Of a DNA stretch of 33,239 nt, positions 839 to 32,253 are shown piece after piece. Below the pieces are notes generated by a model. That model made no database searches and was not told the DNA's origin. It saw only the letters and a program-made list of their open reading frames with translations. The stretch comes from a virus, in IMG/VR virus record IMGVR_UViG_3300008106_000048, positions 1 through 33,239 of that record, one strand, 5' to 3'. The number at the start of each line of letters is the position of its first letter. The first letter of the stretch is position 1. The translations under genes and the position numbers were made by a program.

Positions 839-1336
839 ATGTCCAACAGTCTGATTCACACGCTATCTCCCCTCGAAACTGCTTATGTCGCTGGTATGAT
901 TGAAGCCAAAGCCTCTATTAGCTTAATGCGTCATAAAAACTTTGTTACCCCTGCCATCGAATTTCATCACAAAAATATTAATTATTTGCATCTAGTTAGT
1001 CAAATGTTAGGGGGAACTGTTTATATCGCAAAACCTCCCAATCGTAACAAAAAATGGATTATCAAAGGTCAATTAGCTATCGACATTTTGACCTCTATTC
1101 AACCTTATTGCATTGTCTTTTCACCCTTAATTGATGTCCTAATCGAATATCAAACTTGGTATCTTAATAGACCAAAATTTAAAGGTCTGGGTGACGTGCA
1201 TCAACGACAAACTATTGATTCCTATATTAAGAAAGTTAAAGATTTTAAAGCTAATGTAGAAATGGCTAAAGTCACTAACCGTCCAGAAAATTATTTACAC
1301 GCTCGAACTAGAAAACACTTCACTGGCAGTGTCTAA
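839..1336 (+). CDS. Single-motif LAGLIDADG protein, probably nuclease-dead
   Basis: The 165-aa protein has one LAGLIDADG-like segment near residues 15-27 (AYVAGMIEAKASI). Beyond it is the usual layout of single-motif homing endonucleases: a basic strand region (KPPNRNKKW), then a segment like G-x-x-A-x-x-x-L near residues 75-82, then a conserved I/V-rich helix. In active members the motif ends D-A-D-G or D-G-E-G. Here the last acidic residue, which binds the catalytic metal, is Lys, and the Gly is Ala. The fold may still bind DNA, but cleavage is unlikely. It could be a decayed homing endonuclease or a domesticated regulator. There is no visible SD sequence at the ATG at 839. Confidence 0.65.
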   Translation: MSNSLIHTLSPLETAYVAGMIEAKASISLMRHKNFVTPAIEFHHKNINYLHLVSQMLGGTVYIAKPPNRNKKWIIKGQLAIDILTSIQPYCIVFSPLIDVLIEYQTWYLNRPKFKGLGDVHQRQTIDSYIKKVKDFKANVEMAKVTNRPENYLHARTRKHFTGSV

Positions 1337-1444
1337 ACGACTTCACCCTGTCGCTCAAACCATTACTATTAATTGTAGTGCTGTCGTTGCTTCTTAACCT
1401 TTTTCCTCAATAAAATCCAACAAATTTGTTGTTGCTCATTATGT

Positions 1445-1656
1445 TACTAACCCCGTCCTAAAGGTGCGGGGCTTGCCTAGACCAATTTAAGCAACGCAAG
1501 TAGCGACTACCGCATTGAGACACAATCTGTCCCAGACTTACGAATCCTTCCCTCGTTCGGACTATCTCTAAGCTTTATTGGTAAAGCGTTGTTAGACAAG
1601 ACATCTTGATTGTGTTGCGGTAAAGGACATTAACTTCACTCTTAAGGATTATCTCC
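1445..1656 (+). ncRNA. Probable HEARO / omegaRNA-like leader of the IscB relic
   Basis: The 320-base gap between the LAGLIDADG gene and the IscB relic has no gene. It begins with a stable hairpin (CCCCG at 1451-1455 paired with CGGGG at 1467-1471, then CTTGCC). It continues with short stems and GC-richer segments unlike the surrounding DNA, and ends directly at the ATG of the RRXRR reading frame. IscB/IsrB genes are typically preceded by a structured guide RNA of roughly 200-300 nt (HEARO, omegaRNA). Position, length and the leading hairpin fit this. The identity is inferred from the context, not from a covariance model. Confidence 0.5.
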
Positions 1657-2548
1657 ATGCAAAGAATACCTGTAATCTCTTCAGACAATCGACCTCTAAT
1701 GCCGACTAAACCTAGTCGGGCTAGACGGTGGATTAAAGAAGGAAAAGCCATCGGTAAATTCAACGACTTAGGACAATTCTATGTCCAACTGATAGCAGAA
1801 CCTTCTGACAATGATAAAGTAATAGAGAATCTTGGGCGTGGTAATCCACCCCAAAGACCGCAATTAACACCCTTGTCTGAGGAGGAAAGTGAGCTTCGTA
1901 GGCCTTTACCACCGGAGATATTAATTGATGCTTTACAAGATTCTATTCATAGTGATGTTGGACGTTCTAGACCTGCTAAAACATTGAGGAGTGGTCAAAA
2001 TCGCAGTGGGAAGCAAACAGATTGATCTCATTAACAATGAGTTACAAACACGGTGTCAAGGGGATTTTGTTTTAGGATAACAGTGATTTGTTCATCGATT
2101 TAATCCTCAATTTCCTCTTACACCTGATTCTACAAAGCAAGATGATCAAGAAAATAAAACTCAACCTATTTCTGTAGGAATTGACCCCAGCAAATTGTTT
2201 TCTGGAATTAATGTCCCATCTTCTGGTTTTACTCTGTAGACGGCTCACCTAGAGCTTCCCTTTAAACGAGTTGAAAAACGGATGGATAGTAGTCGTTTAA
2301 TGCGACGAGGAAGACGAGGGAGACGAATTAACCGTAAGTTTCCTTTTCCCCTGAGAGCGCATCGACAAAAGCGATTCTCTAACCAGAGAAATTCTAAGTT
2401 AGCACCAAGTATGATTATTAATTTATTAAGGTTTTTAACATCGACTACAACCATTGTCAATGTTTTTTTGTTTTTCCCCTCCCCGCTCAATCCTTGCTGT
2501 GTGATTATTCCATCCCCTGTCAATATTTCAACCTTGACAAAAGATTAA
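1657..2548 (+). pseudogene. iscB-like: Decayed IscB/IsrB-like RRXRR nuclease gene
   Basis: The first frame (1657-2025) begins with the typical IscB N-terminus: M-Q-x-I-P-V-I, a PLMP motif, then a KPSRARRWIKEGKA segment of the RRXRR (PLMP) domain. A frameshift near 1990 moves the coding to another frame. There a RuvC-I motif (GIDPSKLFSGI, about 2177-2209) and an arginine-rich bridge helix (MRRGRRGRRINRK, about 2299-2337) follow, broken by in-frame TAA, TGA and TAG stops. After the bridge helix the sequence loses family character, and neither an HNH domain nor the later RuvC motifs can be found. It is therefore a truncated and mutated copy of an OMEGA-type nuclease. Its purine-rich coding strand contrasts with the pyrimidine-rich strand of neighbouring genes, a sign of transfer. 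It lies immediately upstream of the polymerase promoter. Confidence 0.75.
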
Positions 2549-2594: not shown

Positions 2595-4281
2595 ATGTCT
2601 AGAAAAAATGCTGTAGGGATTCCTTTGATTTCTGAATCCTTAAGGGAGCAATTATTTGGGGATTTAGAAAACCACCCAAGCAAAACTGCTCGTGACGAAG
2701 CCAAAAGACAGTTACAGAGCTTCAATCTGAGTGGCTCGAACATTCCTACTCCTCCTACTATTGAATTTGATTTACCCCCTCTTGAAGGACCCTATGGATG
2801 GGTCGGAACCCTATTCTGTCCCTTACCCTCTTGAGATGTCCATTGTTTATGACTGTGAGGTTGCTGTTACTAGCTCTAATTACCCTGTCATGGCTTGTGC
2901 TGTTTCTTCTGTCGCTTGGTATTTTTGGGTTTCCCCTAAACTGGTTTCAAACGGTTCTGATACTCTTTGTCCTTTGGGTAAATCCGACAAATTTGTTGTT
3001 GCTCATTATGCCAGTTATGACCGTGCAAGAACCTTAGAAACTTATGACCTCAAACTCTCAGGCGTTCGTTTTTGGGATACTTTGTCTATGCACCAATGCG
3101 TCGCTGGTCTAAGTTCAAAACAACGTCCTCTTAGCATCAAACATAATAAAGCTCTTGATGAGCAAGGTGAGTCTCCTTTTTATTTTGATTGGCTTGAGGT
3201 TTCTAGCGGTAATTCTTTAGCCGAAACTTCAAGATTGCATTTAGGTTATTCTATTTCCAAATCCGACCGTGATTATTTTGTTACCGGTACTCTTTTGGAA
3301 ATAAAAAATCGTTTTCAGCAATTAGCTCAATACTGTGCTAATGATGTTAAAGTCACTTTTCAACTTTATCAAGTTTTATGGTTCCGCTTTAAGGAAAAAT
3401 GCCCTTCTGCTGTGACTTTTTGCGGAATGTTGCAAATGGGTACTGCTATCCTTCCTGTTACCCGTGAAAGTTGGTATGGCTATATCAATCGGTGTGAAGA
3501 GTTGTTTCAGTCCGAACGCTTAAAAATTAATTCCCACTTGCAAATGTTGGCTGATGATGCAGTTTCTAAGTTTATTAGCGGTGAATTAGACCCTAACTCT
3601 GATGCTTGGCTTCGTCATTTAGATTGGTCTATGCCTTCTTCACGGGCTAAAAAACATAAAGACAAACCAGAATGGTATCGTAAGCTATTCAAGGGTGATA
3701 AACTGAACCTTACTGTTCGTTCCCAATGTACCCCCTATCTTTTACGTCTCTCTTGGATGGGTTTCCCTCTTTATCATCATAAGGATCGTAAGTGGGGTTT
3801 TCTTGCCACTCAGGGTGCTGATGTTTCTTCCAATACCACACCTTTGCTTCTTGAAAACTTTATCTCTCACGATGGTGGTCTTTCTTATGTCGATACTCTG
3901 TATTATCCCCTACCTCACAAAGCCGGTGAAAATTCCAATGTTGGTTCGCCTTTGTCTAAAGATTATCTGTCTGAAATGGAAGGAGGTATTCTTGATTCTG
4001 ACTTCCCTGAAGCTAAATTAGCCCTCCAATCTGCTATTTCTTGCGCTTATTGGGTTTCTGTTCAAGACCGAGTAAAAAATCAATTTGTTGTTCTGTCTTC
4101 TGACAATCGAACTGGTTTTATTTGTCCTCAATTAATTACTGCCGGTACTGTCACTGGTCGTGCTGTTGAAAACACTTGGCTTACTGCGGCTAACCCCCGG
4201 GCTAATCGCATTGGAAGTGAAATTAAAACCACTGTTCGTATGCCACAAGGCTATGTTCAAATTGGTGCTGACGTGGACAGT
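2595..4281 (+). CDS. DNA polymerase gamma-like family A polymerase, 5' exon (frameshifted at about 2803)
   Basis: The encoded protein follows mitochondrial DNA polymerase gamma through its whole length. The N-terminal part (2595 to about 2803) contains G-I-x-L-I-S-E-S-L-R-E-Q-L-F-G and LPPLEG, as in Pol gamma. The frame then shifts +1, apparently at GGG 2802-2804. The next frame carries the 3'-5' exonuclease motifs: VYDCEV (Exo I, Asp and Glu present), AHYASYDRA (Exo II) and YCANDV (Exo III). Then come the spacer, the WYRKL and LPHKAGENSNVGSP segments, ITAGTVTGRAVENTWLTA, and motif A ending GADVDS at 4281. A possible in-frame start for the second part alone is ATG 2794 or 2836, but that would lose the N-terminal domain. 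The spacer is shorter than in animal enzymes. The coding sequence is interrupted after AGT 4279-4281 by a group I intron and resumes at 5176. Confidence 0.85.
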
Positions 4282-5175
4282 TAACACAATGGCTGTCGTT
4301 AAACTCCTCTAATTGCTGGAAACTCCAGTTAAGCCTTTACACCACAATCCCTTTAGGATACAATTGGGATAGCGTTTAAAAAGATAAAGGTTATGGACAA
4401 TCAGCGGGAAAGCCTAGTTACAATCCCCGGATTTAGTAAGTACAGCGTTACTAAAACGGGTCGTATCTACTCCCACCGAGTCAAGCGTTTTATGTCACCA
4501 GCAGTCAATAAAAGTGGATATATGGCAACTGTCCTAACAAATGACTCAGGGGAAACTAAAAACATCATGGTTCACCGTATGGTAGCCCTAGCCCATCTAC
4601 CCAACCCAGACAATCTCCCCGTAGTCCACCACAAAGACGATTGCAAGACCAATAACAATCTTGAAAATCTTGAATGGTGTACAATTTCCCACAATATCTC
4701 TGAAGACTATCGGCTAAAGGGCGACAAACGCCCCCAAGGTAGAAAAAACCAACACTCGGACTTCAGAGATATTCACCGGGAAGAAGTAATGGAACTATGG
4801 GTACAGGGTTACACCACCCGAAAAATAGCGGAGATGGTGGGCATGAACAGAACCACAGTGGGAAGGATTGTACAGGACTCTTCAACGACTAGAGAAACGT
4901 CTAGATTCAAGTTAACCACAGAAGATATTGTAAAAATCTTCAATTCTGACTTACCAGATGAACAATTAGCTAAAGAGCATGGAGTACAGAAGTCCCATGT
5001 GGCTAACATCAAGAAGGGTAAAGCATATAAGGGTATCTTGAAAGAACTAGGCTTATTATCGTAGGGCTTAAGCAAGCTCGAAACGGGGAGATACGGGAAA
5101 CCGTATATGATATAGTCTCAACACTGGGGAGACTCAGTGAGAATAGTCGGAAGCGGGCTATTCGTAAGAAACTTG
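4282..5175 (+). other. Group I intron in polymerase motif A
   Basis: The 894-nt insertion splits the polymerase codons for D-V-D-S and Q-E-L-W. The exon ends ...GACAGT, and GCTGTC at 4292-4297 can pair with it to form helix P1 with a U.G pair at the splice site. The last intron base is G (5175), as group I chemistry requires. A P7-3'-like GATATAGTC lies at about 5110-5118 behind a small stem (ACGG-GAAA-CCGT), and ACGACTAGA near 4884 could be its partner. Removal joins the two polymerase exons in frame. A free-standing HNH gene is inside. The same arrangement, HNH-bearing introns in family A polymerase genes, is known from Bacillus phages such as SPO1. Confidence 0.85.
4393..5064 (+). CDS. HNH homing endonuclease with NUMOD4 and HTH modules
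   Basis: The 223-aa protein shows an N-terminal NUMOD4-like segment (IPGFSKYSVTKTGRIYS, about residues 12-28). An HNH_3-type core follows (VHRMVALAHLPNP, VVHHKDDCKTNN, LENLEWCTISHN, about residues 58-102), with the catalytic His pair and the Asn residues in place. Two helix-turn-helix modules come after (TTRKIAEMVGMNRTTVGRIV and DEQLAKEHGVQKSHVANIKKG) that would bind the target. Such enzymes cut intron-less alleles, here presumably the polymerase motif A codons, and so spread the intron. The gene lies wholly inside the intron, and both its ends come close to or overlap likely core elements. Its A-rich coding strand differs from the host polymerase gene, consistent with independent origin. It looks intact. 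Confidence 0.88.
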   Translation: MDNQRESLVTIPGFSKYSVTKTGRIYSHRVKRFMSPAVNKSGYMATVLTNDSGETKNIMVHRMVALAHLPNPDNLPVVHHKDDCKTNNNLENLEWCTISHNISEDYRLKGDKRPQGRKNQHSDFRDIHREEVMELWVQGYTTRKIAEMVGMNRTTVGRIVQDSSTTRETSRFKLTTEDIVKIFNSDLPDEQLAKEHGVQKSHVANIKKGKAYKGILKELGLLS

Positions 5176-6030
5176 CAAGAGTTATGGATTTCTGACCTTA
5201 TAGCTGATGCTCATGTTGGCATTATTGGTGGTACGCCTTCCTCTTTTCAAACACTTGTTGGCTGTAAAGAAGATGGCACTGACCCTCATTCTATGACTGC
5301 TTCTTTATTAGGTATCAGTCGTGATAATGCTAAAACTGTCGTCTATAGCCGTCGATATTCTGCTGGTCTTAAATCGATGATTAATTATATGCGGGAGTTC
5401 CGTAAAACTTTGACTTCTGCTGAGGCTAAACAGCTTGCTTCTGATATGTTTGCCAAAACAAAAGGTAAAAAAATTGAAGGACGTTGGCGTTTAGGTACTG
5501 AGTCCGTTATGTTTAACGAACTTGAACGTATTGCTACTTCTAGTGACCCTCGCACTCCTACCTTAAAACGTACTATGAGTGATGCCATTCATCCTCGTTT
5601 TACTGGTCACAAAGATTATCTAACTAGCAAAATTAATTTTTGTGTTCAAAGCTCCGGTGTTGATTTTTTACACATCTGTCTTACTGCTGTTGATTATCTT
5701 TGTTCCAAATACGACATTGATGCTCGACTTTGTATCACTATTCATGATGAATACCGGTACATTGTTCTTGCTAAAGATTCTGCTCGTTTTTGTTTAGCTT
5801 TGCAAATAGCTCACCTTTGGACTAGGGCTTATATCTCTTATTCTGTTGGACTTTATGATTTACCAGCTTCTGTTGCTTGGTTCTCAGGTGTCGATATTGA
5901 CTTCACTATTCGTAAGTCCCCCGACCAGCACGCTATCACTCCTTCTCAACCTTTAGGTCTTTCTTTAGGGCGAGTCACTACCATTCAAGAGATTCTTGAG
6001 GTGACTAAAGGTTCCCTTTTGAAATATTAG
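5176..6030 (+). CDS. DNA polymerase gamma-like polymerase, 3' exon
   Basis: This exon encodes 284 residues from QELW of motif A to the C-terminus. Motif B is ISRDNAK...YSRRYSAG (about 5311-5364), with the nucleotide-binding Arg and Lys present. Motif C is ITIHDEYRY (catalytic Asp codon 5746-5748). Between them are the Pol gamma landmarks GTESVMFNELERIATS, DPRTPTL, CVQSSGVDFLH and DLPASVAWFSGVDID, and it closes with EVTKGSL as in the mitochondrial enzyme. All polymerase active-site residues are present, so the domain should be functional once the intron is removed. The frame is open upstream to 5137, but those codons are intron sequence. Pol gamma-type enzymes have been reported from some cyanophages, from memory. 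Confidence 0.9.
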   Translation, partial: QELWISDLIADAHVGIIGGTPSSFQTLVGCKEDGTDPHSMTASLLGISRDNAKTVVYSRRYSAGLKSMINYMREFRKTLTSAEAKQLASDMFAKTKGKKIEGRWRLGTESVMFNELERIATSSDPRTPTLKRTMSDAIHPRFTGHKDYLTSKINFCVQSSGVDFLHICLTAVDYLCSKYDIDARLCITIHDEYRYIVLAKDSARFCLALQIAHLWTRAYISYSVGLYDLPASVAWFSGVDIDFTIRKSPDQHAITPSQPLGLSLGRVTTIQEILEVTKGSLLKY

Positions 6031-6161
6031 TACGCCAGATTTCCTTAATTCTGAAGGTTCTCGCTCAAAATCAAAATTGTCTTAGCTCTTTTTCGTGGTG
6101 TCATTGATACTCTAACTATTGGTATCTTTGACCCACCTTTACAAAAAATCATTTCCTTTTT

Positions 6162-6377
6162 ATGAATAAAAAGAATGTCTTGAAAAAAACTAGCACTACT
6201 ATCAATATAAACCTTTTAAAATATATCGCAAATCATAAAACAATTTGGACAAAACCTTATGACCCTGATTTCCAACCTCTTTTAAATTTAGGCTTAATCA
6301 AAAAAGTTGCTGTTGGTCGTGACCTTGAACTTTTTATGATAACACTTGCTGGTGAGTTTTTTGTCAAGAATTTCTAA
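6162..6377 (+). CDS. Small protein, 71 aa, possibly winged-helix-like
   Basis: I do not recognise this protein. It is basic at its N-terminus (MNKKNVLKKTS), with a central helix-rich part (NLLKYIANHKTIW) followed by PLLNLGLIKKVAVGRDLELFMITLAGEFFV. The pattern recalls a winged-helix core (helix-helix-strand-strand), but this is a guess. The ATG overlaps the TGA of a preceding short open stretch (about 6055-6164, no good start codon), which suggests translational coupling or a remnant. Its stop overlaps the stop of the convergent minus-strand gene by 4 bases. The coding strand is less T-rich than that of the polymerase. Confidence 0.55.
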   Translation: MNKKNVLKKTSTTININLLKYIANHKTIWTKPYDPDFQPLLNLGLIKKVAVGRDLELFMITLAGEFFVKNF

Positions 6378-6796
6378 TCTTCAAAAACTTCAGTTAAAAT
6401 CCATGACAGCCAAACACTAAATATTGCTTGTATGCTACTCATTATAGTAAAATATGTGGAAAATACGCTTAACGTGGGAATAGGTAATACTCTTAACAGA
6501 TTGGTTAAACTTATTGCTATTCCGTAAACTCTCGCCACTCCTAACACTATACTGCTTCCCTCTAATGTAAACTTAATTGTTGGTTTTTTGGCTTCTCCTC
6601 TTATAAAATATTTCAAAATAGGTATGCTAAAATTTGTCACAGATGATAATAATAGCAACAATGTATATTGAAATTGCTCGTCTGTTAAACCCCCTATTAC
6701 TCTCACCAAAGTTGTAGTCCAAAATATAAAACCTATGGCTATAAAGTATTCTTTTCCTAATTTTTGCTTAATCTCTAGTGTCTGTTTTGGGTTCAC
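6374..6796 (-). CDS. Membrane protein, 140 aa, holin-like position
   Basis: The protein has about four hydrophobic segments (YFIAIGFIFWTTTLVRVIGG; YTLLLLLSSVTNFSIPILKYF; SSIVLGVARVYGIAISLTNL; a C-terminal segment ending SVWLSWILTEVF). They are separated by short charged loops, with a charged N-terminus. It overlaps the upstream gene by 29 bases, so the two are probably translated together. Size, topology and the presence of a cell-wall-enzyme-like gene two genes upstream fit a holin or another lysis membrane protein, but no holin family is recognised. This is a context-based guess. Confidence 0.6.
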   Translation of the reverse strand: MNPKQTLEIKQKLGKEYFIAIGFIFWTTTLVRVIGGLTDEQFQYTLLLLLSSVTNFSIPILKYFIRGEAKKPTIKFTLEGSSIVLGVARVYGIAISLTNLLRVLPIPTLSVFSTYFTIMSSIQAIFSVWLSWILTEVFED

Positions 6797-13649: not shown

Positions 13650-13670
13650 TTGTTTTTCGCTGTACTCAAA

Positions 13671-13860
13671 AAACTGTACTACCCCTCTAAAAATCAATAA
13701 AACTCAATCTTATTAAGGGTTTTAACATTTTTGACTTTAAAAAACACCATTTAAAAATCAATAAAATTCAGTCATAGCATAGCTTAGACCTGTTTGTACT
13801 ATGTAGTAGGGGGGATAACTTTATTTTTTTTATCTACTACACTTTTAATCATCGCAGTTT
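13671..13860 (+). repeat. IR1 left arm (190 bp)
   Basis: This segment is repeated in inverted orientation at 14364-14553 with few differences. Landmarks are two AATCAATAAAA elements, AAGGGTTTTA-type and AACACCATTT segments, then TAGCTTAGACCTGTTTGTAC, TATGTAGTAGGGGGG and ATAACTTTATTTTTTTTAT. The same core, more diverged, occurs in the IR2 arms at 29083 and 30062. There is no gene here. Confidence 0.9.
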
Positions 13861-13930
13861 AAAAACTCTCATACTTTTTTGCCTCTCTCCCTTACCCCAC
13901 CCCCCAAAAAAAATATTTTTCCACTACCCC

Positions 13931-13960
13931 TTGACATTTTGTTTATACCCATGCTATGCT
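13931..13960 (+). promoter_or_regulatory. Promoter inside IR1
   Basis: TTGACA (13931-13936), an 18-bp spacer and TATGCT (13955-13960), overlapping a CTATG...CATAG palindrome (about 13954-13970). No ORF follows, so it may make an untranslated RNA. Confidence 0.6.
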
Positions 13961-13999
13961 ATATACATAGCGAAAAAAAAAAAAATAGAATGGGGGATA

Positions 14000-14031
14000 G
14001 GATACTAGATTACTTTAATTCTAGGGTATTC
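14000..14031 (+). ncRNA. Stem-loop downstream of the IR1 promoter
   Basis: GGATACTAGA and TCTAGGGTATTC pair around an AT-rich loop about 40 bp after the -10 box. A stem-loop beginning with the related GGATACGAGA occurs in the same place in IR2. Confidence 0.45.
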
Positions 14032-14363
14032 AAAAATCAACCTACCAAAAATTAAATACATATTTTAAATATTTAGCCCACATTTGCTCATTTACCCATT
14101 TTTAACCCCTTAGACCATTACAAATTCGTTTAATAGTAAAAGTATCACGACCCGCTCTGAAGTGTGGTAAAAGGCTGTTTATTATTGTCTGTAGTGTATG
14201 TCCACCTTAAAGTGGAACAATGCTAAAAGAAAAAAGCCACTATACGGAAAAGTCTAAAACCCGCCCTGTTAAAGCAAAAAAAAAAAAAAACAGACTCACC
14301 TTATTAGGACTTCCGAATGCTTTAATTTGCTCATTCTATATAGTTTATGTTTTTTTTGTACCT

Positions 14364-14553
14364 AAACTGCGATGATTAAAGGCGTAGTAGATAAAAAAAA
14401 AATAAAGTTATCCCCCCTACTACATAGTACAAACAGGTCTAAGCTATACTATGACTGGGCTTTATTGATTTTAAAATGGTGTTTTTTAAAGTAAAAACGC
14501 TAAAACCCTTGATATGATTGAGTTTTATTGATTTTGGTTAAGTAGTACAGTTT
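14364..14553 (-). repeat. IR1 right arm (190 bp)
   Basis: Reverse complement of 13671-13860 with scattered substitutions and one-base indels in homopolymers. The inner ends (AAACTGCGATGATTAAA) and the outer ends (GTAGTACAGTTT) are both sharply defined. Confidence 0.9.
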
Positions 14554-14679
14554 TACGCCTAAATTGATTTTTCATTTTCAAAAAAAAAATTTAGGACAAA
14601 AAGGAGGCACTTTCTTTTTTAGCCTAAAAGAGGGGTAGGGGTATCACCTGCATAAATTTTACTTTTTGTCAAGTCCTAT

Positions 14680-29082: not shown

Positions 29083-29353
29083 AGTGACACCTTAAGTGTA
29101 CTACTTTGTGAAAATCAATAAAACTCAATCATATCAAGGGTTTTGTAATTTTGAGACAGTTTAAATACTGTTTAAAAATCAATAAAACCTAATCACAGTA
29201 TAGGTTTAGTCTGTTTTGTACTATGTAGTGGGGGGGATAACTTTATTTTTTTTATGATAGGGGTATCTAATCAACACAGTGAAAAACCCCTAAAAAAAGC
29301 TTTTCGTACCTTTTGAGAGCATTTGGAAGCTACAAGTACCTTTGAGTACCTTT
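29083..29353 (+). repeat. IR2 left arm (about 271 bp)
   Basis: Nearly exact inverted copy of 30062-30334. Landmarks are GTGACACCT, two AATCAATAAAA elements, ATCAAGGGTTTT, AGACAGTTTAAATACTGTTT, GTTTTGTACTATGTAGTGGG, ATAACTTTATTTTTTTTAT, GATAGGGGTATCTAATCAAC and repeated GTACCTTT units. The central ~180 bp matches the IR1 arms. Confidence 0.9.
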
Positions 29354-30061: not shown

Positions 30062-30334
30062 CAAAGGTACTTAAAGGTACTCGTAGCTTCCAAATACTCT
30101 CAAAAGGTACTTGTTTCTCATTTTAGAGGAAAAACCACTGTGTTGATTAGATACCCCTATCATAAAAAAAAATAAAGTTATCCCCCCCACTACATAGTAC
30201 AAAACAGACTAAACCTATACTGTGATTAGGTTTTATTGATTTTTAAACAGTATTTAAACTGTCCCAAAAATTTAAAACCCTTGATATGACTGAATCTTAT
30301 TGATTTTTACTGAGTAGTACAGGTTAGGTGTCAC
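30062..30334 (-). repeat. IR2 right arm (about 273 bp)
   Basis: Reverse complement of 29083-29353 with few differences. It includes AAAGGTACTTAAAGGTACT at its inner end and GTAGTACAGG...AGGTGTCAC at its outer end. Confidence 0.9.
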
Positions 30335-31620: not shown

Positions 31621-32253
31621 TTAATTGTCACAGACTACCCGAAAACCATAGTTAAAATCTGAGATGGAGTGATGGAGAAAGCCTCGGTAGGGGCAATAGC
31701 AGTTAATTTCATCGTTAACCCAAGAGCCTCCCCGACGCACGACAATATCTTTGTAAGATTTATTGCTAATTTCTATCCAAGCACTGCCGTCTGTTGGTGC
31801 GCCGCCATAACTAGCGCACCATTCCCAAACATTACCAATCATGTCATAAAGTCCCCAATTATTAGGCTTTTTTTGCCCTACGGGATGGGTTGTTCCCTGA
31901 GAATTTCTGAAATACCAAGCGTAGTCTCCTAACTCATTAGCATCATTGCCATAATAAAAGCGAGTAGTAGTACCAGCCCGACAAGCATATTCCCATTGGG
32001 CTTCCGTTGGTGGGCGATAGGTTTTCCCTGTTATTTGACTTAATTTCTGACAAAAAGCTTGAGCGTCGTCAAAACTGACTTGTTCTACTGGATTTTGTGG
32101 ATTGTTTTTGAAATAAGAGGGGTTGGTTCCCATTACAGACTGATATTGTGCCTGAGTCACTGGATATTTCCCAAAATTAAAATTTGCATTGGGAATTTGA
32201 ACTAAGTCAATTGAGCTTAGACAAGCAGATAGGGTTAGAGTATGGTTAGTCAT
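31621..32253 (-). CDS. Formylglycine-generating-enzyme-fold (SUMF1/C-type lectin) protein, DGR-target-like
   Basis: The 210-aa protein is an FGE-sulfatase domain: GKYPVTQAQYQSVMGTNPSY (about residues 28-47), PVEQVSFDDAQAFCQKLSQ, YRPPTEAQWEYACRAG, NNWGLYDMIGNVWEWCASY (about 130-148) and RRGGSWVNDEINCYCPYRG, ending YGFRVV. The final R-x-G-G-S-W...R...G-F-R-V layout is that of the variable C-type-lectin module of diversity-generating-retroelement targets. It lacks the usual membrane anchor or signal peptide. The usual enzyme Cys pair is not evident, so ligand binding is more likely than catalysis. It is the third gene of a minus-strand operon, and its ATG overlaps the upstream TGA. No RT, Avd or template repeat is visible. 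Confidence 0.8.
   Translation of the reverse strand: MTNHTLTLSACLSSIDLVQIPNANFNFGKYPVTQAQYQSVMGTNPSYFKNNPQNPVEQVSFDDAQAFCQKLSQITGKTYRPPTEAQWEYACRAGTTTRFYYGNDANELGDYAWYFRNSQGTTHPVGQKKPNNWGLYDMIGNVWEWCASYGGAPTDGSAWIEISNKSYKDIVVRRGGSWVNDEINCYCPYRGFLHHSISDFNYGFRVVCDN

Follow-up and report, generated by a model that had tools for sequence, protein, structure and literature searches.

Introduction

Where did the mitochondrial DNA polymerase, Pol gamma, come from, and does the polymerase gene of a cyanobacterial phage bear on that question? The question is raised here by positions 2595–6030 of the virus record IMGVR_UViG_3300008106_000048, whose whole 33,239-base stretch is called the window. We hold, with a probability of about 0.9, that this locus is a Pol gamma-type family A polymerase gene split by a group I intron with an HNH open reading frame (ORF). 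Furthermore, the proteins of its type, named here after Microcystis phage Mic1, are placed by unrooted trees, with good support, as the sister group of Pol gamma from human and yeast and separate from the other cyanophage Pol gammas.

Judged by its sequence, the window is part of the genome of a Mic1-like Microcystis siphophage (host group, bloom-forming cyanobacteria), because both of its parts match Mic1, the first 20 kb with 91.6% identity over 60% and the second part with 86.8% identity over 58% (megablast), in line with the cyanobacterial phage-like setting proposed in an initial annotation of this DNA. Positions 2595–6030 are 96.4% identical to Mic1 DNA over 79%, where Mic1 is annotated as DNA polymerase gamma in two ORFs, and the readable part of the window protein is 98% identical to the Mic1 protein. 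According to the Pol gamma section of PMC7156551, the Mic1 gene (gp86–gp85, MN013189) was published in 2020 with a 298-bp intron, and an unrooted neighbour-joining tree gave opisthokont and Mic1 Pol gamma a common origin; the text of that section holds no statement placing Mic1 nearer to mitochondria than other cyanophages. The kind of polymerase and the intron are thus already known, because the near-identical Mic1 gene (~96% at the DNA level) has been published as an intron-split Pol gamma. Among the titles listed by searches of open-licence PMC text, none was of a paper on the sister relation or the window intron, and a tested mitochondrial sister relation, intronless alleles and a homing-like tract were not found in print.

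Results and discussion

Composition of the polymerase gene

The gene would encode the replicative DNA polymerase of a Mic1-like phage, laid out as an N-terminal domain, a proofreading exonuclease and a polymerase domain (Table 1). The reading spliced from ATG 2794 (exons 2794–4281 and 5176–6030) comprises 780 amino acids (aa) with no stop. Its exonuclease part is of the mitochondrial type: it matches PF18136, the mitochondrial polymerase exonuclease (E 1.3e-58), and the translation contains YDCEV, YDR and YCxxDV, which we take to be motifs ExoI–III. Exon 2 (284 aa) matches PF00476 (E 1.5e-9) and, in a phmmer search of the PDB, mitochondrial Pol gamma structures (E 5.9e-65), the best non-gamma match being Pol I (E 0.44); below E 0.4, single-sequence PDB searches returned only Pol gammas. 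The initial annotation, which had claimed a closer likeness to Pol gamma than to Pol I or T7 polymerase, is borne out by these values.

A profile built from six cyanophage Pol gammas scored 814 bits with yeast Mip1, nearly end to end, and ~740 bits with human POLG, against 45 bits for the best Pol I, and a cyanophage Pol gamma hidden Markov model profile aligned the region of 2595–2834 with the N-termini of both mitochondrial proteins. Motifs A, B and C are present as GADVDSQELW, SRDNAKTVVYSRRYSAG and IHDE, aligned with human and yeast; motif B retains its lysine and both tyrosines. The motifs quoted in the initial annotation are all there, and GADVDSQELW reads across the intron exactly as it had stated. 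An AlphaFold model of the protein of an intronless relative, L007 (16-row alignment), had a mean predicted local distance difference test score of 85.4 and a query-normalised template modelling score of 0.88 to human Pol gamma versus 0.39 to T7 polymerase.

Table 1. Positions in the window of the polymerase gene, its intron and neighbouring features
Feature	Position	Strand	Basis
Gene start; N-terminal domain homology over ~65 codons, followed by loss of frame and a stop	2595..2834	+	Aligns with Mic1 8001–8194 in L002
Deletion point; 137 bp of Mic1 and L004 missing, 46 residues lost, frame changed	2788..2789		BLASTN
Exon 1 as readable; 3'-5' exonuclease domain, spacer, start of motif A (GADVDS)	2794..4281	+	Open frame; PF18136
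Group I intron of 894 nt, midway through motif A, terminal G	4282..5175	+	L007/L008 uninterrupted at this codon
ORF inside the intron; predicted 223-aa homing endonuclease of NUMOD4-HNH type, including a helix-turn-helix region	4393..5064	+	Pfam
Exon 2; remainder of motif A (QELW), motifs B and C (the latter HDE), C-terminus EVTKGSLLKY	5176..6030	+	phmmer; PF00476
Insertion of ~1.02 kb upstream of the polymerase; IscB-like N-terminal relic (ORF 1657–2025)	1393..2410		BLASTN; PF14239
Mic1 gp87 orthologue, upstream neighbour of the polymerase	839..1336	+	Translation compared with Mic1_87 by eye

Place in the Pol gamma tree

Over the full alignment, the Mic1 protein is 42% identical to human, 38% to yeast and 32–33% to the A-HIS1, A-HIS2, S-TIM5 and S-CBWM1 proteins, and human is 43% identical to yeast. 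Trees were built in IQ-TREE under LG+C20+F+G4 by posterior mean site frequency, with 14 of the 49 viral loci not of the Mic1 type. In the outgroup tree, Mic1 (record L002) and two of the related viral contigs L003–L009, namely L006 and L007, represented the type, and the six outgroups were T7, Escherichia coli Pol I, P-SSP7, Pf-WMP3 and two T7-like phage enzymes. The long-branched loci L063, L064, L068 and L070 were kept in the 24-row tree and omitted from the 20-row, outgroup and half-protein trees; the outgroup tree and its root tests also omit L004, L033, L041 and L060. The incomplete or interrupted loci L066, L067 and L073 were left out of the trees, and the window's own broken protein is in none of them.

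The branch uniting the Mic1-type and mitochondrial proteins had supports of 100/98 (24 rows) and 100/100 (20 rows), of 99/99 for the polymerase domain with the six outgroups (22 rows), and of 100/99 and 99/98 for the N-terminal and C-terminal halves taken apart. Approximately unbiased tests rejected the groupings of mitochondria with A-HIS (p 2.8e-8), of the Mic1 type with A-HIS (p 1.1e-8) and of human with the Mic1 type (p 0.0034). The Mic1-type/mitochondrial pair had 22 fixed columns exclusive to two groups, and each of the nine other pairs had between 2 and 10. No closer relative of the animal and fungal mitochondrial DNA polymerase came to light in this analysis than the Mic1-type enzyme, which shares with POLG and Mip1 whole-length homology (N-terminal, exonuclease and polymerase domains) and the motif A GADVDSQELW; human POLG has a longer spacer, and POLG and Mip1 are ~40% identical to the phage type and lack the phage intron.

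The initial annotation had mentioned related genes in other cyanophages, and A-HIS1/2, S-TIM5 and S-CBWM1 do carry them. Together with the viral-contig relatives, these share the domain plan and the family with the Mic1 type (100/100 versus T7/Pol I), but the other cyanophage Pol gammas form separate lineages, and those read have no interruption at the codon that holds the Mic1-type intron. The family A tree suggested by the initial annotation, run with Mic1, L006 and L007, placed the type with Pol gamma in a clade separated from the six T7/Pol I-type outgroups (100/100), and a grouping with T7/Pol I was not obtained. A phage polymerase of the usual T7 or Pol I kind, with motifs that resemble Pol gamma by chance only, would also be a family A member and match PF00476, but with this clade, the PDB searches and matches that span the whole protein including the N-terminal domain, that explanation can hardly be entertained.

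The group I intron and its HNH ORF

In L007 and L008, the polymerase gene has no intron and is one open frame (913 codons stop to stop; 891 residues from the ATG of L007), and these frames thus fix the splice site between S and Q, GADVDS|QELW. The intron is 894 nt long in the window and in L003, which is near-identical to the window, 298 nt in Mic1, 294 nt in L004 and 898 nt in L005, L006 and L009, and its last base is G in 7/7 intron-plus loci. The exon GACAGU pairs with the intron GCUGUC as P1, with U.G at the 5' splice site, at energies of -9.3 and -9.2 kcal/mol in two intron-plus alleles and -2.9 kcal/mol in the intronless-exon control. The P7 strands GACUA/UAUAGUC were located by pattern, the 5' motif being TTCAACGACTA at 4881–4891, with a counterpart in L005; the intron ORF overlaps it. 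Against Rfam RF00028, the window intron scored 19 bits (E 0.032) because the long ORF breaks up the match, and the orthologous Mic1 intron 45.5 bits (E 1.3e-10). The ORF matches HNH_3 (9.8e-8) and NUMOD4 (4.9e-5), both above their cut-offs, and HTH_23 (2.6e-7). The intronless relatives and the P1 pairing confirm the group I intron of the initial annotation, with the HNH ORF inside it. We propose that the transcript would fold through P1 and that the ribozyme would excise itself, joining GADVDS to QELW.

Mic1 gp86–gp85 is the same gene at the same place, with the intron at the same codon, but its intron lacks the HNH ORF; Mic1 also retains the 137 bp missing from the window and lacks the IscB insertion at that place. 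The pairing of a full exonuclease with an intron, which the initial annotation had regarded as unusual, is found in Mic1 too. As described in passages of PMC3428280, HNH group I introns occur in other phage polymerase genes, namely the family A polymerase genes of SPO1 (I-HmuI), SP82 (I-HmuII), Bastille (I-BasI) and Pf-WMP3 (I-PfoP3I), the last a freshwater cyanophage with an HNH polymerase intron, as in the window. The Pf-WMP3 intron lies at SSSKP|NIQQIP, upstream of motif A, whereas that of the window lies inside motif A; an insertion site common to the window and the SPO1/Pf-WMP3 introns was thus rejected, since the codon differs from that of Pf-WMP3.

Interruptions were also seen in other loci. 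At 3182–3420 of L067, in the gene of another Pol gamma, the frame is closed by a stop between motifs A and B and opens again ~190–240 bp further on, perhaps owing to another intron. In L066 (3989–6085), the Pol gamma frame ends past motif A, and tblastn did not find the C-terminal half in the locus.

Possible signs of homing and co-conversion

L006, which has the intron, and L007, which has none, were compared in 90-nt blocks. Of the 20 blocks that precede the intron block, 19 were 89–100% identical and one 81%; from the intron block onward identity was 78, 66, 51, 72, 76 and 77%, returning to 96–100% in the last four blocks. The two otherwise nearly identical loci thus diverge for ~540 nt from the intron on, a tract that is consistent with homing and co-conversion: the HNH enzyme would nick intronless alleles, and repair would copy the intron together with flanking polymerase sequence.

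Ordinary mosaic recombination between phages, without homing, would also produce patchy divergence, and the window and L003 do differ in patches at 3843–4272 and 6003–6704, while the single L006/L007 block at 81% lies far from the intron. We nevertheless regard this explanation as doubtful, as the intron marks the start of the largest dip and its presence or absence switches with the dip. Furthermore, the exon end next to the intron tracks the intron, being GACAGT in 7/7 intron-plus loci and GATTCA in 2/2 intronless ones, although several of these loci are near-copies of each other.

Direction of transfer

A cyanophage enzyme has been proposed as the source of Pol gamma (Chan 2011, as cited in passages of PMC3914683 and PMC7156551), and a passage of PMC3914683 states that Pol gamma is retained only in opisthokonts. 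In the best rooted tree, mitochondria are nested among the phages. A scenario with somewhat less than even odds is that a phage of the Mic1-type lineage, from freshwater cyanobacteria, was the donor of Pol gamma (or, less likely, that these phages acquired it from mitochondria), and that homing of HNH introns repeatedly exchanges the motif A–B region among phages of this type.

Several points weigh against our main reading of the gene. The root alternatives survive testing, with all phage Pol gammas as one clade (p 0.288) or all those not of the Mic1 type (p 0.418), and the direction of transfer is therefore not given by the sister relation. The trees hold two full mitochondrial sequences only, human and yeast, both from the PDB; the human row has an odd composition and the yeast row a long branch. 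The window and Mic1 introns both score under the RF00028 gathering cut-off of 50, L006 is only modestly nearer to Mic1 than L007 is within the divergent tract, and the copy of the gene in the window contig has a broken 5' end. The bearing on the origin of the mitochondrial replicase claimed in the initial annotation is real, but the origin itself is not settled while these root alternatives stand.

Acquisition of Pol gamma by Mic1-type phages from a eukaryote, in the direction from mitochondria to phage, is permitted by the sister position alone and by the surviving single clade of all phage enzymes. It also agrees with the absence of a DnaB-family helicase from the Mic1-type records, where the rest of a 'mitochondrial' replisome was not seen: PF03796 (DnaB_C), the family that presumably includes Twinkle, was found in 0/3 of these records and in 14/14 positive controls. 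PF00940 (phage/mitochondrial RNA polymerase) was absent from the three records and also from all 14 controls and is hence uninformative, and Mic1 gp89 is an SF1-type helicase. We consider such an acquisition improbable, as the Mic1 type falls outside human plus yeast, its grouping with human being rejected, and the best rooted tree nests mitochondria as described.

Among genome contigs, 31 + 73 pattern matches yielded no bacterial relative of Pol gamma, though short patterns can miss distant ones, and the pattern scan of viral contigs for intermediates between the Mic1 type and mitochondria gave only the seven known Mic1-type contigs. The sister relation is a well-supported refinement of the Pol gamma origin question, no solution to it; if the Mic1 type is the true sister group, the question becomes testable. 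In Mic1, gp85–gp86 are listed, in a part of PMC11237433, among the genes peaking 4 h after infection.

The 5' lesion in the window contig

The initial annotation had joined 2595–2803 to 2805–4281 across a one-base frameshift. A one-base or programmed frameshift at 2804 was rejected, since the relatives show instead a 137-bp gap at 2788/2789, the counterparts of which are 8194|8332 in Mic1 and 4076|4214 in L004 (BLASTN). Because of this deletion, the end of the N-terminal domain is short of 46 residues and the reading from 2595 runs out of frame and stops, so that no single frame of the window contig spans the whole of that domain; the protein joined as the initial annotation proposed has an artificial seam and lacks these residues. 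The domain is intact in 7/7 Mic1-type relatives covering the place (Mic1 and L004–L009), L006, L008 and L009 being judged from the two ends of the sequence and its coordinates.

We think that an error of assembly, or else a deletion in a minor strain, is more likely than a working arrangement. A biological lesion, with a phage Pol gamma truly lacking the 46 residues and translated from ATG 2794, or an inactive gene, has some points in its favour: the deletion brings GAAGGA 4 nt upstream of the in-frame ATG, the 780-residue reading retains every exonuclease and polymerase motif, and past the lesion the codons differing from Mic1 (of 767) are 48 synonymous against 18 others. It is nonetheless unlikely. 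Two further stretches are missing from the contig: 102 bp at ~7697, found in L003, L004 and Mic1, and 121 bp at ~9211, present in the near-identical L003. Both gaps are clean, with no long repeats, and three similar gaps within 7 kb suggest assembly error. Moreover, all seven Mic1-type genes covering the place keep the 137-bp stretch, and the junction 25-mer had no match in other viral contigs, in a scan that possibly did not include the window's own record. That a supposed one-base frameshift proved to be a 137-bp gap warns against hand-joining a single contig.

Other features of the window

The upstream IscB relic reported in the initial annotation is real, matching PF14239 (RRXRR) with E 1.1e-10, but its tie to the polymerase did not hold. 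The insertion carrying it is absent at the same place from Mic1 (7801|7817 of L002) and L004 and has relatives in other Microcystis phages, LMM01/MaMV; the relic is therefore no part of the polymerase gene, and it was set aside as an incidental neighbour.

Mic1 gp87, the orthologue of the product of 839–1336, is named DNA endonuclease I-CreI in a part of the Mic1 transcriptome paper (PMC11237433). The window product had no Pfam match at 0.01 and is possibly a free-standing LAGLIDADG-like homing endonuclease.

Stretches of ~160–200 bp within 13663–14554, 29094–29253 and 30164–30325 resemble many places in Mic1, in both orientations, and are a dispersed repeat of Mic1-like phages. The ORF at 31621–32253 encodes an FGE-sulfatase (formylglycine-generating enzyme-like) domain (E 2.8e-37).

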